From Afipia sp. GAS231 (lineage in GTDB: Bacteria; Pseudomonadota; Alphaproteobacteria; Rhizobiales; Xanthobacteraceae), in NCBI RefSeq assembly GCF_900103365.1, contig NZ_LT629703.1, positions 7,178,501 to 7,242,500 on the forward strand: a stretch of 64,000 nucleotides of DNA, read 5' to 3'. Position 1 is the stretch's first letter. Every line of letters starts with the position of its first letter. The translations under genes and the position numbers were made by a program. Under the pieces are notes generated by a model that worked only from the letters and a program-made list of their open reading frames with translations, made no database searches and had not been told where the DNA came from. Shown piece after piece: positions 1,332 through 12,175 of the stretch.

Positions 1332-2279
1332 CTAGGCGGCTTTTTCGGTCCACGGCGTACCGCGCTGGACCACGGTGTTGGCGTAGATCAGGAGCTTTCG
1401 GGCGCAAGCGATGAGCGCTGCGGTGTGGGCCTTTCCAGCGGCCGTCAGGCGGGCATAGAGCGCGACGAGTGCCTTGTTCCAGCGGAAGGCCGCTGGGAGG
1501 GCAGCCGCGAACAGGGAGCGGCGTAGGCGACTTCGCCCGCCAGCTATGCGACGTAGGCCTTTATGTTTTCCGCTGTCGTCGTCGAAGGGAGCCAGGCCGG
1601 CCAAGGCTGCAGCTTCCTCGCGGCTGACTTGCCCAAGCTCGGGCATGCGGATCAGAAGCGCCAGCGCCGTGCGTTCTCCGATGCCGGGAATGCTCAGCAC
1701 CAGATTGAGTCGCATGGCAAGATCGTCACTGGCGCGAAGTCGCTTGGCAATGTCGCGTATCTGCGCGGCCCGTCGTGCCTTCAGCCGGACGATGTCGCTG
1801 TTAACAATGCGCCGCAGGCCAGGTTCGTCGATATGTTCGAGCCGGGTCTTGTGACGCGCGATGTCTTCCTCGATCTGTTCGAGAAAGGTCAGATATCCAG
1901 CCAGTTGTGCCAGTCGAGGATCTGGCGCAGTCTTCGGCTGATCGAGTGTCGCTGTGCAAGCCGCGATCAAGAACGCATCGAGCGCATCGTTCTTGGCGCG
2001 ACGCAGATGGACCCGGCCAAAAGCCTTGACCTGGGTCGGCTGCAGCACCAGCACGGTGAAGCCCGCCTTGCGCAAATACTCCACCACACCGCGTTCATAG
2101 CCGCCCGTCGCCTCGATCCCGACGCGCGTCACGCCGGCTTTGGACAGGTTGGCCGCCAAGGCGCGCCAGCCAGGTAAAGCATTGGCAACCCGCCAGCGCT
2201 CGGACCGATCATGAACAGCAACGTCCAGTTTGGCCTTGGATGTATCGATTCCAGCCGTCGTTATGATAGTCTGTGTCAT
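1332..2279 (-). CDS. IS110-family transposase (DEDD plus Tnp_20)
   Basis: This is a 315-residue transposase of the IS110 family. The N-terminal RuvC-like domain shows the DEDD residues in GIDTSKAKLDVAVHD (about residue 10), GIEATGGYERG (about residue 57) and RAKNDALDAFLIA (about residue 96). The C-terminal Tnp_20 half contains the helix-hairpin-helix LSIPGIGERTALALL and the GGRSRLRRSLFAA motif, which should carry the catalytic serine. The start at 2279 (MTQTIITTAGIDTSKAK) fits the family better than the ATG 15 codons upstream. The frame looks intact, so the element may be active. The non-coding stretch upstream, rather than downstream, of the gene points to the IS110 rather than the IS1111 subgroup. 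Confidence 0.93.
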   Translation of the reverse strand: MTQTIITTAGIDTSKAKLDVAVHDRSERWRVANALPGWRALAANLSKAGVTRVGIEATGGYERGVVEYLRKAGFTVLVLQPTQVKAFGRVHLRRAKNDALDAFLIAACTATLDQPKTAPDPRLAQLAGYLTFLEQIEEDIARHKTRLEHIDEPGLRRIVNSDIVRLKARRAAQIRDIAKRLRASDDLAMRLNLVLSIPGIGERTALALLIRMPELGQVSREEAAALAGLAPFDDDSGKHKGLRRIAGGRSRLRRSLFAAALPAAFRWNKALVALYARLTAAGKAHTAALIACARKLLIYANTVVQRGTPWTEKAA

Positions 2280-2455
2280 CTTCGTCGACCCCGCCTTGTG
2301 AAGCGAACCAAGTTGTTCCGGCAACCATCCGGGTCCGATGAAGGTGCTGGCGCGATCACGCTACGGGGCAGCCACAAACTGCTCAGGATGGGTTCGATCC
2401 GATCGCCAGCGGCCTGCCGTGGATGGCCGTCCACGGCAGGCCATTCCTTTCGGAA
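2280..2455 (-). ncRNA. Candidate IS110 bridge RNA (left-end non-coding region)
   Basis: IS110-group elements encode a structured bridge RNA in the non-coding region just upstream of the transposase (about 177 nt in IS621). Here about 175 bp precede the transposase start. On the transcribed (minus) strand they begin with a perfect 13-bp stem and 6-nt loop (2411-2442, arm GGCCTGCCGTGGA), which would suit a 5' hairpin. The target- and donor-binding loops were not identified because the element's ends are not defined. This is an inference from position and structure only. Confidence 0.4.
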
Positions 2456-4265: not shown

Positions 4266-4296
4266 TTCAATAGTTCAGTAATAGTGAACTATTGAA
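4266..4296. promoter_or_regulatory. Perfect 12-bp-arm operator between SDR and ArsR genes
   Basis: The arms TTCAATAGTTCA (4266-4277) and TGAACTATTGAA (4285-4296) are exact inverted repeats around a 7-bp spacer. Winged-helix ArsR dimers bind sites of this kind. The site lies between the two divergent starts, 31 bp upstream of the regulator's ATG, so one dimer could control both promoters. Confidence 0.8.
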
Positions 4297-4327
4297 TGTG
4301 TTCAAGGGGTGCGCTATATATTTAGGC

Positions 4328-4645
4328 ATGGTGCAATTCGTTCATCCGCAGCGCGAGGACATCACATTGGCCGGCGTGCTGGCAGCGCTCGCGGACCCGA
4401 TGCGGCTGCGCATCGTCAAAAGCCTGATGGAAGAGAAGGATTGCATGTCCTGCACGGCCGCAGCGCCGTGCCCCGACATGGCCAAATCGACGCTGTCGAA
4501 CCATTTTCGCATTCTGCGCGAAGCCGGACTGATCCAGACCTCGAAAAAAGGCGTCGAGCACCGCAATGTCGTCCGCGCGGCGGATATCAATGCGCGCTTT
4601 CCGAAATTGCTGAAGACGATTTTGGGATTTTCGGAGCAGGCATAG
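4328..4645 (+). CDS. ArsR-family winged-helix repressor
   Basis: This 105-residue regulator has the ArsR/SmtB fold: LAALADPMRLRIVKSL (helices 1-2), then TLSNHFRILREAGLI as the recognition helix, then the wing KKGVEHRNVV. A cysteine cluster, DCMSCTAAAPC (about residues 37-47), precedes the recognition helix and could sense metal or oxidation. Classical ArsR sites have a different spacing, so the inducer is open. The ATG at 4328 was preferred over the TTG at 4292, because the TTG lies inside the operator palindrome. No Shine-Dalgarno site is visible, and TATATA lies about 13 bp upstream, so the message may be leaderless. A truncated second copy of this gene is at 6352-6558. Confidence 0.9.
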   Translation: MVQFVHPQREDITLAGVLAALADPMRLRIVKSLMEEKDCMSCTAAAPCPDMAKSTLSNHFRILREAGLIQTSKKGVEHRNVVRAADINARFPKLLKTILGFSEQA

Positions 4646-4658
4646 CCTGCATGAGCGC

Positions 4659-4768
4659 GTAGCCCGGATGAGCGAAGCGATATCCGGGATGGTGTGAGAG
4701 CGGCCCCGGATATCGTGGAGCCTGTCATCGGGCGCGCATTCGCGCGACCCGTTGGCTCATCCGGCTAC
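4659..4768. repeat. Dispersed GTAGCCCGGATGAG palindrome
   Basis: The element opens GTAGCCCGGATGAGCGAAGC and closes with TGGCTCATCCGGCTAC, with the inner palindrome GATATCCGGG / CCCCGGATATC. It is a second class of long palindromic repeat between genes, directly followed by copy C of the 117-bp repeat. Confidence 0.75.
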
Positions 4769-5974: not shown

Positions 5975-6340
5975 ATGTCGTCAATGAAAACGGGCTGCAG
6001 TCTTCTTGTTGTTGCCGTCACGGCCGCGTTGGGCGGTTCGCCAGCCGTCGCGCAGAATCTCGATCAGAGCAAGCCGGCGCCAAAAATATTCGCCGAGAGC
6101 TGCGCGACCTGCCATCGCAGCGCGCGCGGGCTCGCGAAGGGCCGGTTCCGCCTCACGCTCTATCTGTTCCTGCAGGATCACTACGCCAGCAATTCCAGCT
6201 CGGCCTGGGCGCTGACGAGCTATCTGGAATCCGTCGACGAGGCGAAGCGCGGCCCATCGCGCGCTGCGGCGAAGCCGAAAGCCGCCGCCGGGTCGTCACG
6301 GTCATCGCTGCGTCCGCCGGCGCCGGTGCCGACGCGGTAG
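5975..6340 (+). CDS. Secreted mono-haem cytochrome c-like protein
   Basis: This product of about 121 residues has a signal peptide (MSSMKTGCSLLVVAVTAALG, cleavage near AVAQ) followed by the haem-binding motif CATCH inside the context FAESCATCHRSARGLAKGRF. The rest (LYLFLQDHYASNSSSAWALT) resembles the distal helix of small periplasmic cytochromes, but no clear methionine ligand follows. The tail is rich in Ala, Pro, Ser and Arg. The start could be 5975 or 5984 (MKTGC), and neither has a strong ribosome-binding site. The fragment of the ArsR gene starts 12 bp after the stop codon, so the 3' end may have been altered by that rearrangement. The periplasmic electron-transfer role is inferred. Confidence 0.7.
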   Translation: MSSMKTGCSLLVVAVTAALGGSPAVAQNLDQSKPAPKIFAESCATCHRSARGLAKGRFRLTLYLFLQDHYASNSSSAWALTSYLESVDEAKRGPSRAAAKPKAAAGSSRSSLRPPAPVPTR

Positions 6341-6351
6341 GGCGTAGGCAC

Positions 6352-6558
6352 GATTGCATGTCCTGCACGGCCGCAGCGCCGTGCCCCGACATGGTCAAAT
6401 CAACCCTGTCGAACCATTTTCGCGTTCTGTGCGAAGCCGGATTGATCCAGACCTCGAAAAAAGGCGTCGAACACCGCAACATCGTCCGCGAAGCGGATAT
6501 CAACGCGCGCTTTCCGAAGTTGCTGAAGACGATTCTGGGATTTTCGGAGCAGGGGTAG
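6352..6558 (+). pseudogene. Truncated duplicate of the ArsR gene
   Basis: This 207-bp stretch matches 4439-4645 of the intact ArsR gene base for base at roughly nine in ten positions and in the same length. It covers the Cys cluster (DCMSCTAAAPC), recognition helix and C-terminus, ending GFSEQG then stop. The first 37 codons, including the start and helices 1-2, are missing. It joins directly to the end of the cytochrome-like gene. The frame is still open, but without the N-terminal dimerisation helices it is unlikely to work as a repressor. Confidence 0.8.
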
Positions 6559-6672
6559 CACTCAGTAGCGTAGGATGGATTGAGCGAAGCGAGACGCCAT
6601 CAGCGTATTGGTAGCTTTCGAGAGTGATAAGCTTCGCGAGGGTTCAACCCAAAAATACATGTTGGCGTTCGG

Positions 6673-8280
6673 TCAGCTAGGAGCGACAGTCGGGAGAACT
6701 CTTCTGATCGCATCCGAAAGTTCAGGTGCTATATTGTTTCGCAATGCTCGGACGACCCATTGCTCGAACAAATTCTTAGTCGTGCCCTTTGCTTTGCAGG
6801 CAATTCCCAAAACACCCTTGTTATCATACCATTTTAGAAGTTCCGGAGCGTTCTTCTCCGCGATAGATTCTTGAATACTCTCCGATGCCATCTTCGCAAG
6901 AGCCGAAATGTCAATTCCGCTAGTTTGCGCGACATAGTCTGCGGCAAGCATCGCTACGTCTTCGGCGTCACCAAAGTCGATTTTCTTGAGAGTACGATCA
7001 ATCCGCCTTCGACAGTACCGCATCACTATAGGAGTCTGATTCTCAGGAATAGCGGCCTGTACGAAGAGCTCTTCTAGGACGGAAGAAACCTTGGCTTGAA
7101 GAGCTTCGAGCAAATAACCTTCGCTCTTAGCTATCGCTTCGACCACGCTCGGTAGAAGAAAGAGGTTCTCGATTTCTGACACGGGCAGAATAGCTATGCC
7201 CTTCTTCCTGAAGAATTCGATCTCCGTGGCGTCATAGGCGTCGGCATCTACTATACCTGCACAGGCTGCGCGCGTTAGATTTGAGTTCGCGCGCATGGTG
7301 ATCACGGCATGAATAACTTCCTCGCAGGCGCCGCGAGGGATTATAGTCCAATTGGGATAACATGCGCGGTAAATGGCCTGATCGAGGCTGTCGCCTCGGC
7401 CTTCAACAAATAGTACTGGTTTGCGGCTACCGAGGATGAGTGTCGTAATTTCTTCGCTAAAGCCCGTATCGTCTGGAACAGCCTCGATAGTCCAGCCGTT
7501 AACCGGATCATAGTCACGTAGGACGTATTTTTGACCCTCGCGCGAGGCCACGAATTCTAGGTCGTGGGAGATAAAAACCATGGCGCAATCGGGGCGTGCC
7601 GCTTCAAGTTCATCCCAGAGTCGCGACATGATAGAGCGGTGTATGTGCAATTCTGGTTCATCGAAGATGATGAGGCTATCGCGTGCAGCTACGAGCGTTT
7701 GACCGATAAGATAGAAAATTGCCCGCTCTCCGTCGCTCATTTCGGCGGCGCTGTATTTTACACCGGAATCTGCGACAAAAGTTTGTATGTCGTCTCCTGT
7801 GATATCGAGCTTTCGATGAGGAAGGATGCGATCCCAAATTTCAATGAGCTTCTCAAATTTTGTGGCAGTTGCAGTCTTTCCAGCGCCCGCGCGTGCGTTC
7901 CTGTGTGTATCCAAAGCGGTGTTCGCTTGTTCGGCAAAAAGTGACTGCAGTATGTAGTCGTAGTCGTTCAATATGAGAGTCGCGGCCTTCCCCTTCCAAC
8001 GCTGCCCTAGTCGATGAATGATGCTCGCTCCTTCGCCGTGATAACCCAATCTGAGCCCTAAAAGGGCGTCCTGCTCGGCTATCTTAGGAATTGTAGGATT
8101 GAGAACGAGAGCCCTATGTGCAGAAATGCGATGGGCAGTCTCTCCAAGTAACTCTTCAATTTTAGTGGCGAGTCTTGTCTTGCCACCTCCATTTGCCCCC
8201 ACAAACAAGAGTGATGTTCCGGTCTCCACTTCGAAATTGAGCGGCCCGGTCGGGGTGGGTATTGAAAACTTGAAGGTCAT
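6673..8280 (-). CDS. AAA/ABC-type ATPase fused to DUF4435 TOPRIM domain (PARIS-like defence candidate)
   Basis: This 535-residue protein has two parts. Residues 1 to about 285 form an SMC/ABC-like ATPase: Walker A GANGGGKT (28-35), signature SDGER (182-186), Walker B LIIFDEPELHIH (203-214) and switch histidine H239. Residues about 287-535 match DUF4435, a TOPRIM-type fold, with FVEGRGD (E293), GIVDADAYD (D345, D347) and SEIEN (368-372) as acidic sites. ATPase plus DUF4435 is the arrangement of PARIS anti-phage systems (AriA/AriB), which also occur as fusions; OLD-type defence nucleases are related. The start at 8280 was preferred because the ATG at 8346 leaves no room for a promoter after the nrdJ terminator (8354-8384). 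Base composition is visibly less GC-rich than the neighbours, suggesting transfer. No partner gene is adjacent. Confidence 0.88.
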   Translation of the reverse strand: MTFKFSIPTPTGPLNFEVETGTSLLFVGANGGGKTRLATKIEELLGETAHRISAHRALVLNPTIPKIAEQDALLGLRLGYHGEGASIIHRLGQRWKGKAATLILNDYDYILQSLFAEQANTALDTHRNARAGAGKTATATKFEKLIEIWDRILPHRKLDITGDDIQTFVADSGVKYSAAEMSDGERAIFYLIGQTLVAARDSLIIFDEPELHIHRSIMSRLWDELEAARPDCAMVFISHDLEFVASREGQKYVLRDYDPVNGWTIEAVPDDTGFSEEITTLILGSRKPVLFVEGRGDSLDQAIYRACYPNWTIIPRGACEEVIHAVITMRANSNLTRAACAGIVDADAYDATEIEFFRKKGIAILPVSEIENLFLLPSVVEAIAKSEGYLLEALQAKVSSVLEELFVQAAIPENQTPIVMRYCRRRIDRTLKKIDFGDAEDVAMLAADYVAQTSGIDISALAKMASESIQESIAEKNAPELLKWYDNKGVLGIACKAKGTTKNLFEQWVVRALRNNIAPELSDAIRRVLPTVAPS

Positions 8281-8353
8281 GTGGACGCCCCAATCTGGGA
8301 AATGGGATTTTCGCAAATTCGACAGAAAGAAGCATTGCAGTTTCATCGATCGG

Positions 8354-8384
8354 AAAAAGGCCGCTCTCTCGAGCGGCCTTTTTT
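8354..8384 (-). terminator. nrdJ terminator
   Basis: The stem AAGGCCGCTC / GAGCGGCCTT has a 4-nt loop, with A-runs on one side and T-runs on the other. It lies about 50 bp beyond the nrdJ stop on the minus strand and would end nrdJ transcription before the ATPase gene. A palindrome TGCCCGGG/CCCGGGCA (8390-8411), half of the dispersed repeat, sits between the two. Confidence 0.8.
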
Positions 8385-8431
8385 GTAGATGCCCGGGTCA
8401 AGCCCGGGCATGACGTTCGTTCAGCGCAAGA

Positions 8432-11400
8432 TCACGAACACCCCGTCGTCGAGCCACATGTATCGCACTTCATGCAGGTGCCGTTGCGCACCAGCGAGAA
8501 GTGGCCGCATTCGCCGCACATTTCGCCTTCGTAGCCTTTGGCTTTGGCTTCGGCGCGACGCTCGGCCTTGGAGGGCTGGGCGGCTTGCGCGGCGCCGGTC
8601 TTGCTCCACTGCAACGCTTCGAGCTTCTCCGTGGGAGAGAGATCGTGCTGGACTTCCTGCTTCAGCGCGACCGCGCCTTCCAGGGTGTCGGAGACGCGGG
8701 CAGAGGGGCCGTGGCCGGCGATCGCGGTGACATTGCCCGAGCCGCGGGCGTCGGTGTCGCTGGGGGCCTGGCGCATGACGACGAGGTTGTCGGTGCGCGA
8801 GCGGGTCAGGCCCTTCGACACATAACGGGTCGAGTGCGACGGATCCGGCTCCTTGCCTTCCTCGACGCCCTTGCCGAGCGCGTCGAAATTCGACTCGCTG
8901 GGATCGACATGGGCGAGATCGAAGCGCGACATGTAGCTGACCGCGAGTTCGCGGAACACATAGTCGAGAATCGAGGTCGCGTACTTGATGCTGTCGTTGC
9001 CCTGCACGGGGCCCGCCGGCTCGAAGCGGGTGAAGGTGAAGGCGTCGACATATTCCTCCAGCGGCACGCCGTATTGCAGGCCCAGCGACACCGCGATGGC
9101 GAAGTTGTTGATGAAGGAGCGGAGCGCCGCGCCTTCCTTGTGCATGTCGATGAAGATCTCGCCGATCCGGCCGTCGTCATATTCGCCGGTGCGGAGATAA
9201 ACCTTGTGGCCGCCGACGACCGCCTTCTGGGTGTAGCCCTTGCGGCGATCCGGCATCTTCTCGCGTTCGCGCATCACGATGATGCGCTCGACCAGCTTCT
9301 CGACGATCTTTTCCGAGACCTGGGCGGTACGCGCCGCCATCGGCTTGTCGTAATAGGCGTCGGTCGTATCCTCCTCGTCGTCATCATCCGAGATGAGCTG
9401 CGAGTTCAGCGGCTGCGACAGTTTCGAGCCGTCGCGATAGAGCGCGTTGGCCTTCAGCGCCAGTTTCCAGGACAGCAGATACGCGGACTTGCAATCCTCG
9501 ACGGTGGCGTCGTTCGGCATGTTGATGGTTTTCGAGATCGCGCCCGAGATGAACGGCTGCGACGCCGCCATCATCCGGATGTGGCTCTCGACCGACAGAT
9601 AGCGCTTGCCGATCTTGCCGCAGGGGTTGGCGCAATCGAACACGGGATAGTGCTCGGCCTTCAGATGCGGCGCGCCTTCCACGGTCATCGCACCGCAGAT
9701 GTGGACGTTGGCGGCCTCGATCTCGCGCTTGGTGAAGCCGACGGCGGCGAGCAGGTCGAAGCCGGGGGCGGCAATCGCTTCCGGCGCGAGCTTCAGCACG
9801 TCGCGCAGGAAATCTTCGCCAAAGGTCCACTTGTTGAAGGCGAACTTGATGTCGAACGCGGTCGGCAGCGCCTTTTCAACCTTGGCCAGCGCTTCGTCGG
9901 TGAAGCCTTTGGCCTTCAGGGTGGAGACGTTGATGCCGGGTGCGTTGGAGAGCGAGCCGTGGCCGACGGCGTAGGCTTCGATCTCGGCAATATCAGCCTC
10001 GGAATAGCCGAGCGTGCGCAGCGCGACCGGGACGGCCTGGTTGATGATCTTCCAGTAGCCGCCGCCGGCGAGCTTCTTGAATTTCACCAGCGCGAAATCA
10101 GGCTCGATGCCGGTGGTGTCGCAATCCATGACGAGACCGATGGTGCCGGTCGGCGCCACCACGGTGGTCTGGGCGTTGCGGTAGCCGTGCTTCTCGCCGA
10201 GCGCCAGCGCGTCGTCCCACGCCGCAATCGCATGGGTGACGATGTCGGTCTGCGGGCACGAGGCGTGGTCGAGCGGCACCGGGCTGACGGCCAGCGCCTC
10301 ATAGCCGCGGGATTCGCCATGCGCGGCGCGGCGGTGGTTGCGGATCACGCGCAGCATGTGCTGGGCGTTCTTCTTGTAGCCGGGGAAGGTGCCGAGCTCG
10401 CCGGCCATTTCGGCCGATGTCTTGTAGGAGATGCCGGTCATAACGGCGGTCAGGGCGCCGCACAGCGCGCGGCCTTCCTTCGAGTCATACGACAGGCCCA
10501 TGGTCATCAGCAGACCGCCGATGTTGGCAAAGCCGAGGCCGAGCGTGCGGAACTCGTAGGAGAGTTCGGCGATCGCGCGCGACGGGAACTGCGCCATCAT
10601 CACGGAGATTTCCAGCACCACGGTCCAGAGCCGGCACAGATGCTCGTAGGATTCGACGTCGAACCGCTTGGTCGTGGTCGAATAGAACGTGATCAGGTTG
10701 GCGGAGGCGAGGTTGCACGCCGTGTCGTCCAGGAACATGTATTCCGAGCACGGGTTCGACGCGCGGATATCGCCGGACGCCTTGCAGGTGTGCCAGTCGT
10801 TCATGGTGGTGTTGAAGTGCAGGCCGGGATCGGCCGAGGCCCAGGCGGCGTGACCGATCTTCTCCCAGAGGTCTCTGGCTTTAAGAGTCTTCGTCACCTT
10901 CTTGTTGGTGCGGCCGATCAGGTTCCAGTCGCCGTCGGTTTCGACGGCGCGGAGGAAATCGTCCTTCAGCGACACCGAGTTGTTGGAGTTCTGGCCGGAT
11001 ACCGTGAGGTAGGCTTCCGAATCCCAGTCGGTGTCGTAGGTCGGGAAGTCGATGTCCTTGTAGCCCTGCTTGGCGAACTGGATCACCCGCTTGATGACGT
11101 TGTCGGACACGAGGCTGCGGCGCGCGAGCTTGATTTCGCGGCGGAGCGCCGGGTTCTTCTCGGGATCGAAGCAGTCGTCGCCCGAACCTTCGCAGTTGAC
11201 GCAGGCCTTCAGCACGGCCTTGAGGTGCTTCTGGTTGATCTTGGAGCCGGTGACGAGAGCGGCGACCTTCTGCTCCTCCTTCACCTTCCAGTCGATATAG
11301 GTCTCGATATCCGGATGGTCGGCGTCGACCACGACCATCTTGGCCGCGCGACGGGTGGTGCCGCCGGACTTGATCGCGCCCGCGGCACGGTCGCCGATCT

Positions 11401-12175
11401 TGAGGAAGCTCATCAGGCCGGACGAGCGGCCGCCGCCGGACAGCTTTTCGCCTTCGCCGCGCAGGCGCGAGAAGTTGGAGCCGGTGCCGGAGCCGTACTT
11501 GAACAGGCGGGCCTCGCGGACCCAGAGGTCCATGATGCCGCCCTCGTTGACGAGGTCGTCACCGACGCCCTGGATGAAGCAGGCGTGCGGCTGCGGATGC
11601 TCGTAGGCCGACTTGGACTTGGTCAGTTTGCCGGTGAACGGATCGACGTAGTAGTGGCCCTGGCCGGGGCCATCGACGCCGTAGGCCCAATGCAGTCCGG
11701 TGTTGAACCACTGCGGGGAGTTCGGCGCGACCATCTGCTTGGCCAGCATGAAGCGCAGCTCGTCGAAGAACGCGCTCGCGTCTTCTTCCGAGGAGAAGTA
11801 ATTGCCCTTCCAGCCCCAATAGGTCCAGCAGCCGGCGAGGCGGTCGAACACCTGCTTGGCCGAGAGCTCGCTGACGAAGCGCTCGTTCTCGGGGAGGGCG
11901 GCCAGCGCCTCGGTGTCGGGCACTGAGCGCCACAGCCACGACGGCACGGTCTCTTCCTCGACCTTCTTCAGGCGTGCGGCGACGCCGGCCTTGCGAAAGT
12001 ACTTCTGGGCCAGGACGTCGGAGGCGACCTGCGACCAGAACTGGGGCACTTCGACGTTTTCCAGGCGGAACACGATCGAACCGTCGGGATTGCGGATCTC
12101 GGATGTCGTCAGCCTGAAATCAATCCCTGCATAGGGTGACTGGCCGGAAGTGGTGTTGCGCCGTTCGATTCGCAT
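8432..12175 (-). CDS. nrdJ: Vitamin B12-dependent ribonucleotide reductase (class II)
   Basis: This 1247-residue enzyme reduces ribonucleotides to deoxyribonucleotides using adenosylcobalamin. Features of the long class II family are visible. The N-terminal part has [11 protein letters not shown] and the long active-site loops [14 protein letters not shown] and [20 protein letters not shown]. The barrel contains [20 protein letters not shown]. The C-terminal tail has the cysteine pairs CGECGHF and [13 protein letters not shown], which probably bind zinc and/or shuttle electrons to the active site. No nrdA/B is seen in the window. It is a single-gene unit with an unusually long upstream non-coding stretch (718 bp to the next gene) and a terminator at 8354-8384. 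The length is normal and no frameshift is visible. Confidence 0.97.

Follow-up and report, generated by a model that had tools for sequence, protein, structure and literature searches.

PARIS is defined as an ATPase of the AAA_15 or AAA_21 type fused to, or adjoining, a DUF4435 protein (PMC9122126, partial text). In the two-protein form, up to three AriB subunits are bound to a hexamer of AriA until they are loosened by a phage anti-restriction protein, for instance Ocr; the freed AriB then dimerises and cuts tRNA-Lys (PMC11455837; PMC12409363, partial text). PMC12409363 also names the AriB lysines K60 and K64. In this work, we analysed a 64,000-nucleotide stretch of the genome of Afipia sp. 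GAS231 (the window), in which one gene, ariAB, joins both domains in a single chain of 535 residues. It lies directly behind a long reading frame that we take to be nrdJ, a name that comes from a first-pass annotation of this DNA. This gene is probably a single-gene PARIS (fused AriAB, AAA_21 plus DUF4435) acquired by cargo exchange behind nrdJ, as its domains, active-site residues, predicted AriB-like fold, purifying selection, patchy presence and foreign composition suggest. The coordinates of all features are collected in Table 1.

The reading frame is intact (ATG at 8280, stop at 6673-6675) and lies on the minus strand, which the first-pass annotation had not specified; on the plus strand, 6673-8280 contains many stops. 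An alternative frame of 557 residues runs from an ATG at 8346, near the nrdJ terminator, and the start is aligned to the ATG at 8280 in most of 27 aligned relatives. The predicted fusion is real: AAA_21 (43.3 bits) and DUF4435 (37.4 bits) both exceed the Pfam cut-off, which is 27 bits for either domain. The ATPase motifs are complete, as had been claimed (Walker A G28-T35, signature S182-R186, Walker B 205-210, switch H239). As for the acidic residues proposed for the effector half, E293, D345, D347, E369 and E371 are invariant in 27 aligned sequences. In a wider alignment of 62 sequences the first three and E371 are still invariant and E369 varies, so that E371 is the likelier third acid. The gene is also less GC-rich, as noted earlier: its overall GC is 0.507, with 0.58/0.42/0.52 at the three codon positions against 0.60/0.45/0.88 in nrdJ.

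Of the two fused AriAB profiles in PADLOC, the one of 570 positions (PDLC02982) matches residues 1-534 with 663.8 bits, whereas the longer one of 694 positions (PDLC02981), also an ATPase-DUF4435 fusion, gives only 47.9 bits. Going by PMC9122126, we infer that PDLC02982 is the AAA_21-type fusion of that paper, and PDLC02981 is probably its AAA_15-type fusion. The protein shares domain order, length class and catalytic residues with the PDLC02982 class, and no difference in sequence class was seen; what differs is the carrier and the site. With AAA_21 and DUF4435 both above 27 bits in one protein, it has the domain pair that defines PARIS, and its effector half has the TOPRIM fold and acidic active site of AriB in a structure predicted for a single chain. 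AriB is the closest fold to the C-terminal half, the match covering residues 3-268 of that half, although a Foldseek search with this half returned no match at E <= 0.001 and AriB emerged on a second look. With the full model, ATPases dominate the Foldseek matches, and AriA and AriB were not among the matches listed by sequence searches of the PDB. Structural alignments to two-gene PARIS show 11-14% identity. In the two-gene system of Escherichia coli (8ux9, 8v45-8v47, 8v49) AriA and AriB are separate, whereas here they are covalently fused. Judged by residue numbering, the ATPase half also falls about 180 residues short of AriA within the aligned range.

The first-pass annotation had found the protein much shorter than expected for an AriA-AriB fusion and had suggested a minimal, separate lineage. 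Neither idea is supported, because relatives have the same size and PADLOC already holds a fused AriAB profile that is matched over its full length. A protein search yielded 1898 relatives among 7997 candidates scored; among the 120 relatives listed, 107 (own protein included) have 518-560 residues, and the 119 others are 60-81% identical to our protein. Similarly, frames of 518-559 residues were found at 25 of 28 loci with extended frames, the other three being a TAG-broken frame, a fragment and a frame running off its contig. A scan of genome contigs found at least seven relatives. A reader who had the longer class of fusions in mind would indeed find this protein short. The strain is one more host for a known family, and a defence function is likely.

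The alternative that survives best, although an unlikely one, is an OLD- or Gabija-like ATPase-nuclease, whose TOPRIM half would nick or cut DNA rather than tRNA and whose ATPase would sense a nucleotide or DNA state. OLD nucleases do match the predicted structure, and the GajA profile reaches up to 29.4 bits. However, the match to AriB is higher and spans residues 3-268 of the half, DUF4435 exceeds its cut-off, and Pfam shows no TOPRIM family of the OLD type at E <= 1. Moreover, none of the 37 other genes scanned in the window matches a GajB-type profile at E <= 1e-10. Septu was considered as well: PtuA profiles score 27.4 bits or less against the protein, and no Septu profile was found among the 37 window genes at the same threshold, several short frames lying outside that scan. 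The PtuA ATPases of Septu and of retrons have an HNH protein as partner, in contrast with the fused TOPRIM half found here.

Among 265 Bradyrhizobium genomes (G and L numbers are our labels for genomes and loci), a protein search gave matches in 19. Close full-length copies, 66-100% identical, occur in five of the 265, own genome included, which rejects a core gene. One of these copies (G058, L079) is interrupted by a TAG codon and separated from nrdJ by about 0.7 kb of other sequence. The other matches comprise an N-terminal fragment (G107, L011), distant relatives of 28-32% identity in six genomes and short matches within the ATPase part in seven. Any DUF4435 match was found in 14 of the 265 genomes, above the cut-off in 12. 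Among four copies, dN/dS is 0.09 and 0.08 in the two computable pairs, the other four pairs being saturated at synonymous sites; these sequence comparisons show purifying selection where it is measurable. Relatives also occur on mobile elements: in 54 of 72,556 plasmid records, none above 60% identity, and in 2 of 50,697 phage records, both from the same single phage and covering half of the query. Of note, a distant relative, 23% identical across 96% of the query, is found on the 6.4 kb E. coli plasmids NZ_CP030330.1 and NZ_CP047879.1.

Presence at the nrdJ locus, which the first-pass annotation had proposed as a check, is patchy across the genus, and all five close copies sit behind nrdJ. 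Relative to the nrdJ stop (its first base), their start codons lie at 66 (G025), 85 (G137), 92 (G238), 155 (window) and 698 bases (G058). In the stretches examined, the G107 fragment and the distant relatives had no nrdJ within 1.5 kb. A single insertion may or may not have been inherited by all five carriers: a tree with four of the close copies (G058 left out) places these in an unresolved fork, while the two genomes closest at nrdJ (G089 and G139, 92%) carry different cargo.

This distribution directs attention to the site. DNA of the last 969 bases of nrdJ was matched in 259 of the 265 genomes. The slot behind it was surveyed in 101 of them, neither a complete nor a random sample, made up of the own genome, 4 deliberately chosen carriers, 16 hand-picked non-carriers and 80 hand-picked genomes; some listed genomes were passed over in the picking, several of them near contig ends and others for no recorded reason, and contig ends shortened the slot stretches of G189 and G052. 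Open reading frames (ORFs) were called mechanically, and some first ORFs may be spurious. A first ORF, meaning a co-directional frame of at least 90 residues starting within 450 bases of nrdJ, is present in 86 of the 101 genomes and absent from 15, and these ORFs form 67 clusters, 56 of them singletons. Over 1.2 kb behind nrdJ, the mean GC is 0.54, and it is below 0.56 in 75 of 101 stretches. Only 122 of 5050 genome pairs have a blastn match behind nrdJ, and in 48 of these the match is 300 bases or longer. As controls in 30 nearby genomes, the stretch behind recA matches in 266 of 435 pairs (137 with 300 bases or more) and the stretch before it in 424 of 435; only 8 of the latter reach 300 bases, so that this length measure fails to separate the nrdJ slot from the upstream flank of recA. 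In the 16 genomes common to both sets, the nrdJ stretch matches in 2 of 120 pairs. These comparisons use pairs that are not independent and a single control gene.

A further regularity is one and the same putatively ParB-like gene, which lies 809-4189 bases from the nrdJ stop in 31 of the 101 stretches, mostly after differing genes. The window is without it; the far side of its slot is an ArsR-SDR flank common to G165. Defence hotspots between core genes are already known (for example PMC10250203, partial text). A literature search on nrdJ and Bradyrhizobium defence found no nrdJ defence hotspot; it covered few subscription papers and is weak evidence of novelty. Altogether, we consider it very likely that a single slot at the nrdJ 3' end serves throughout Bradyrhizobium for the exchange of anti-phage genes.

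As for the cargo, 40 slot ORFs were scanned singly: 10 hand-chosen, two of them from one genome, and 30 drawn at random from 61 ORFs of at least 150 residues in 80 genomes of the survey. At E <= 1e-10, PADLOC matched 11 of the 40 (4 of the 10 and 7 of the 30), against 1 of the 37 other window genes (Fisher p 0.0035 for 11/40 and 0.018 for 7/30). There was no AriAB among the 40, and 22 had no PADLOC match at E <= 1e-3. A tally over the 86 first ORFs adds Drt4, Drt6, SAVED-HNH and a CBASS endonuclease-effector among the 25 of 150 families shown. Pfam detected DUF4062 and DUF2971 in slot ORFs without PADLOC match; other ORFs, outside the single PADLOC scan, contain AbiTii and a HEPN domain. Judged by these profiles, the slot is defence-rich and most of its cargo is without a known name.

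Two other kinds of cargo deserve mention. The largest cluster, shared by six genomes (G022, L181; G079, L178; G095, L128; G131, L086; G182, L165; G222, L158), shows Peptidase_M78 at 25.7 bits in G131, a weak capP match of 24.8 bits in G022 and none in G079, and is a candidate new defence family. In G124 (L091:9036-10845), a ParA-type ATPase is followed by a HEPN (RiboL-PSP) protein, possibly as a two-gene system.

Could the gene instead serve housekeeping, as an ATPase-nuclease outside defence? For one archaeon, an OLD-family ATPase is reported to take part in the cell cycle (PMC12796447, partial text), purifying selection would suit such a role, and besides a cyclase profile no other defence gene was recognised among the 37 window genes. 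However, the narrow distribution (of 265 congeners, 5 have close copies and 14 have a DUF4435 match of any strength), a third-position GC of 0.52 against 0.88 in nrdJ, and a slot shared with recognised defence genes make this very improbable. The anti-phage reading by analogy with PARIS, already put forward in the first-pass annotation, is instead supported by the full-length AriAB match, the AriB-like fold, the patchy presence, the foreign composition and the defence-rich site. Neither of the two outcomes that this annotation had named as fatal to a defence reading, a C-terminal half of another fold or a fixed core gene of host-like composition, was observed.

No partner gene is seen in the neighbourhood, in agreement with the earlier description: of the other 37 genes scanned in the window, PADLOC matched only one at E <= 1e-10, with a cyclase profile, and this may be an ordinary cyclase. 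The rearranged ArsR fragment reported next to the gene is a partial 3' copy inside a direct repeat (4439-4680 and 6352-6592; 243 columns, 89% identical) that originates in the 3' portion of an ArsR-like gene. The roughly 1.7 kb between the repeat arms include a frame that we presume to be cytochrome-c-like from its CxxCH motif. More than 4 kb from ariAB, the frame at 1332-2324 (minus strand) resembles a transposase, presumably of the IS110 type by motif. CCA-ended, tRNA-like hairpins occur in the first 100 bases behind the nrdJ stop in G160 (L085) and G028 (L092), yet neither the window nor any of six loci contains a tRNA according to ARAGORN, and a tRNA-borne integration site was rejected. 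No clean empty site matching the window on both sides was found in 20 other regions compared; of 30 loci also inspected, only the 16 on the plus strand were read on the correct side of nrdJ. The closest case for comparison, G165, has nrdJ and the ArsR-SDR flank in common with the window and different genes between them.

The nrdJ terminator proposed earlier is supported by a hairpin (z -4.7 for 8340-8400), although the hairpin is absent from the listing of a consensus scan. The promoter proposed for the gap after it is not supported: the consensus scan of 6300-8900, which covers sigma-70-type sites only, found none there and one site inside the gene against 1.2 expected. In 65 of the 101 genomes, the 240 bases that follow nrdJ contain a terminator-like hairpin with a T tail; in G025 about 20 bases separate the end of the hairpin from the start codon, which leaves little space for a promoter. 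The longest ORF of at least 150 residues that starts within 700 bases of nrdJ is co-directional in 81 genomes, antisense in 15 and absent in 5. This suggests that slot cargo may be expressed by read-through from nrdJ, and an expression coupling of the cargo to nrdJ is speculative. As a further alternative, ariAB could be a passenger that is intact but either silent or decaying and has no function in the strain today. This would agree with the missing sigma-70-type promoter, the TAG-interrupted homologue at the same site in G058 and the G107 fragment, but is very improbable in view of the intact frame, the kept catalytic residues and the dN/dS of about 0.1 in two measurable pairs.

Table 1. Features of the ariAB locus in the window and of cargo in other nrdJ slots (slot loci L077-L096 and L104-L183; window slot 8280-8432).
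Feature	Location	Strand	Remarks
Fused ariAB gene	6673..8280	-	535 aa + stop; PADLOC AriAB PDLC02982 663.8 bits, residues 1-534
ABC/AAA_21 ATPase half, residues 1-285	7426..8280	-	
Walker A, residues 28-35 (GANGGGKT)	8176..8199	-	G28, N30, G31, G33, K34 invariant in 62
ABC signature, residues 181-186 (MSDGER)	7723..7740	-	S182, G184, E185 invariant in 62
Switch histidine H239	7564..7566	-	invariant in 62
DUF4435/TOPRIM effector half, residues 286-535	6676..7425	-	
TOPRIM E293-G294	7399..7404	-	invariant in 62
TOPRIM D345-x-D347	7240..7248	-	D345, D347 invariant in 62
Third acidic residue E371	7168..7170	-	invariant in 62
Terminator-like hairpin of nrdJ, between nrdJ and ariAB	8354..8383	-	about -22 kcal/mol
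nrdJ, fixed upstream flank of slot	8432..12175	-	1247 aa
ArsR-like gene, intact	4292..4645	+	distal flank common to G165
Partial 3' duplicate of ArsR-like gene	6349..6549	+	
SIR2/PDC-S25-like slot ORFs	G235, G234		PADLOC E <= 1e-10
PDC-S45 slot ORF	G062		PADLOC E <= 1e-10
OLD/Gabija-type ATPase fragment in slot	G088		PADLOC E <= 1e-10
PD-T7-1 slot ORF	G036, L096:1518-2693		323 bits
Retron-type PRTase slot ORF	G125		PADLOC E <= 1e-10
SIR2 slot ORF	G115, L132:2535-3500		328 bits
Restriction-helicase-like slot ORF	G252		PADLOC E <= 1e-10
CBASS cyclase slot ORF	G179, L109:2298-3578		475 bits
Retron RT-Toprim slot ORF	G244, L157:1534-3336		729 bits
PDC-S34 slot ORF	G009, L164:203-1009		394 bits

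For the single-gene PARIS that we favour, a mechanism following the same logic as two-protein PARIS can be proposed, with activation inside the assembly. The ATPase halves would assemble and keep the TOPRIM halves inactive until a phage protein, an Ocr-like anti-restriction protein in the PARIS systems studied, alters the ATPase. Paired TOPRIM halves would then cut host tRNA, translation would halt and the infected cell would stop making phage. In E. coli, tRNA Lys UUU is the first to be cut by the PARIS effector. As the effector is covalently joined to the ATPase, release of free AriB could serve as the switch only if the chain were cut, and activation would rather be a rearrangement or pairing within the assembly. 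The shorter ATPase half means that the trigger surface probably differs from that of AriA, and the trigger is hence probably another one than in two-protein PARIS. The fusion makes it possible to ask how PARIS switches on when its effector cannot be released from the sensor.

A genus-wide nrdJ slot with mostly co-directional, low-GC cargo and, jointly, expression of that cargo through terminator read-through is a tentative and rather doubtful proposal. If it is true, the defence gene would also be armed whenever a phage or a growth condition increases antitermination or transcription of nrdJ. The site matters more than the gene itself: with its fixed core flank nrdJ and its changing neighbour, it offers an easy way to look for new defence genes in Bradyrhizobium.
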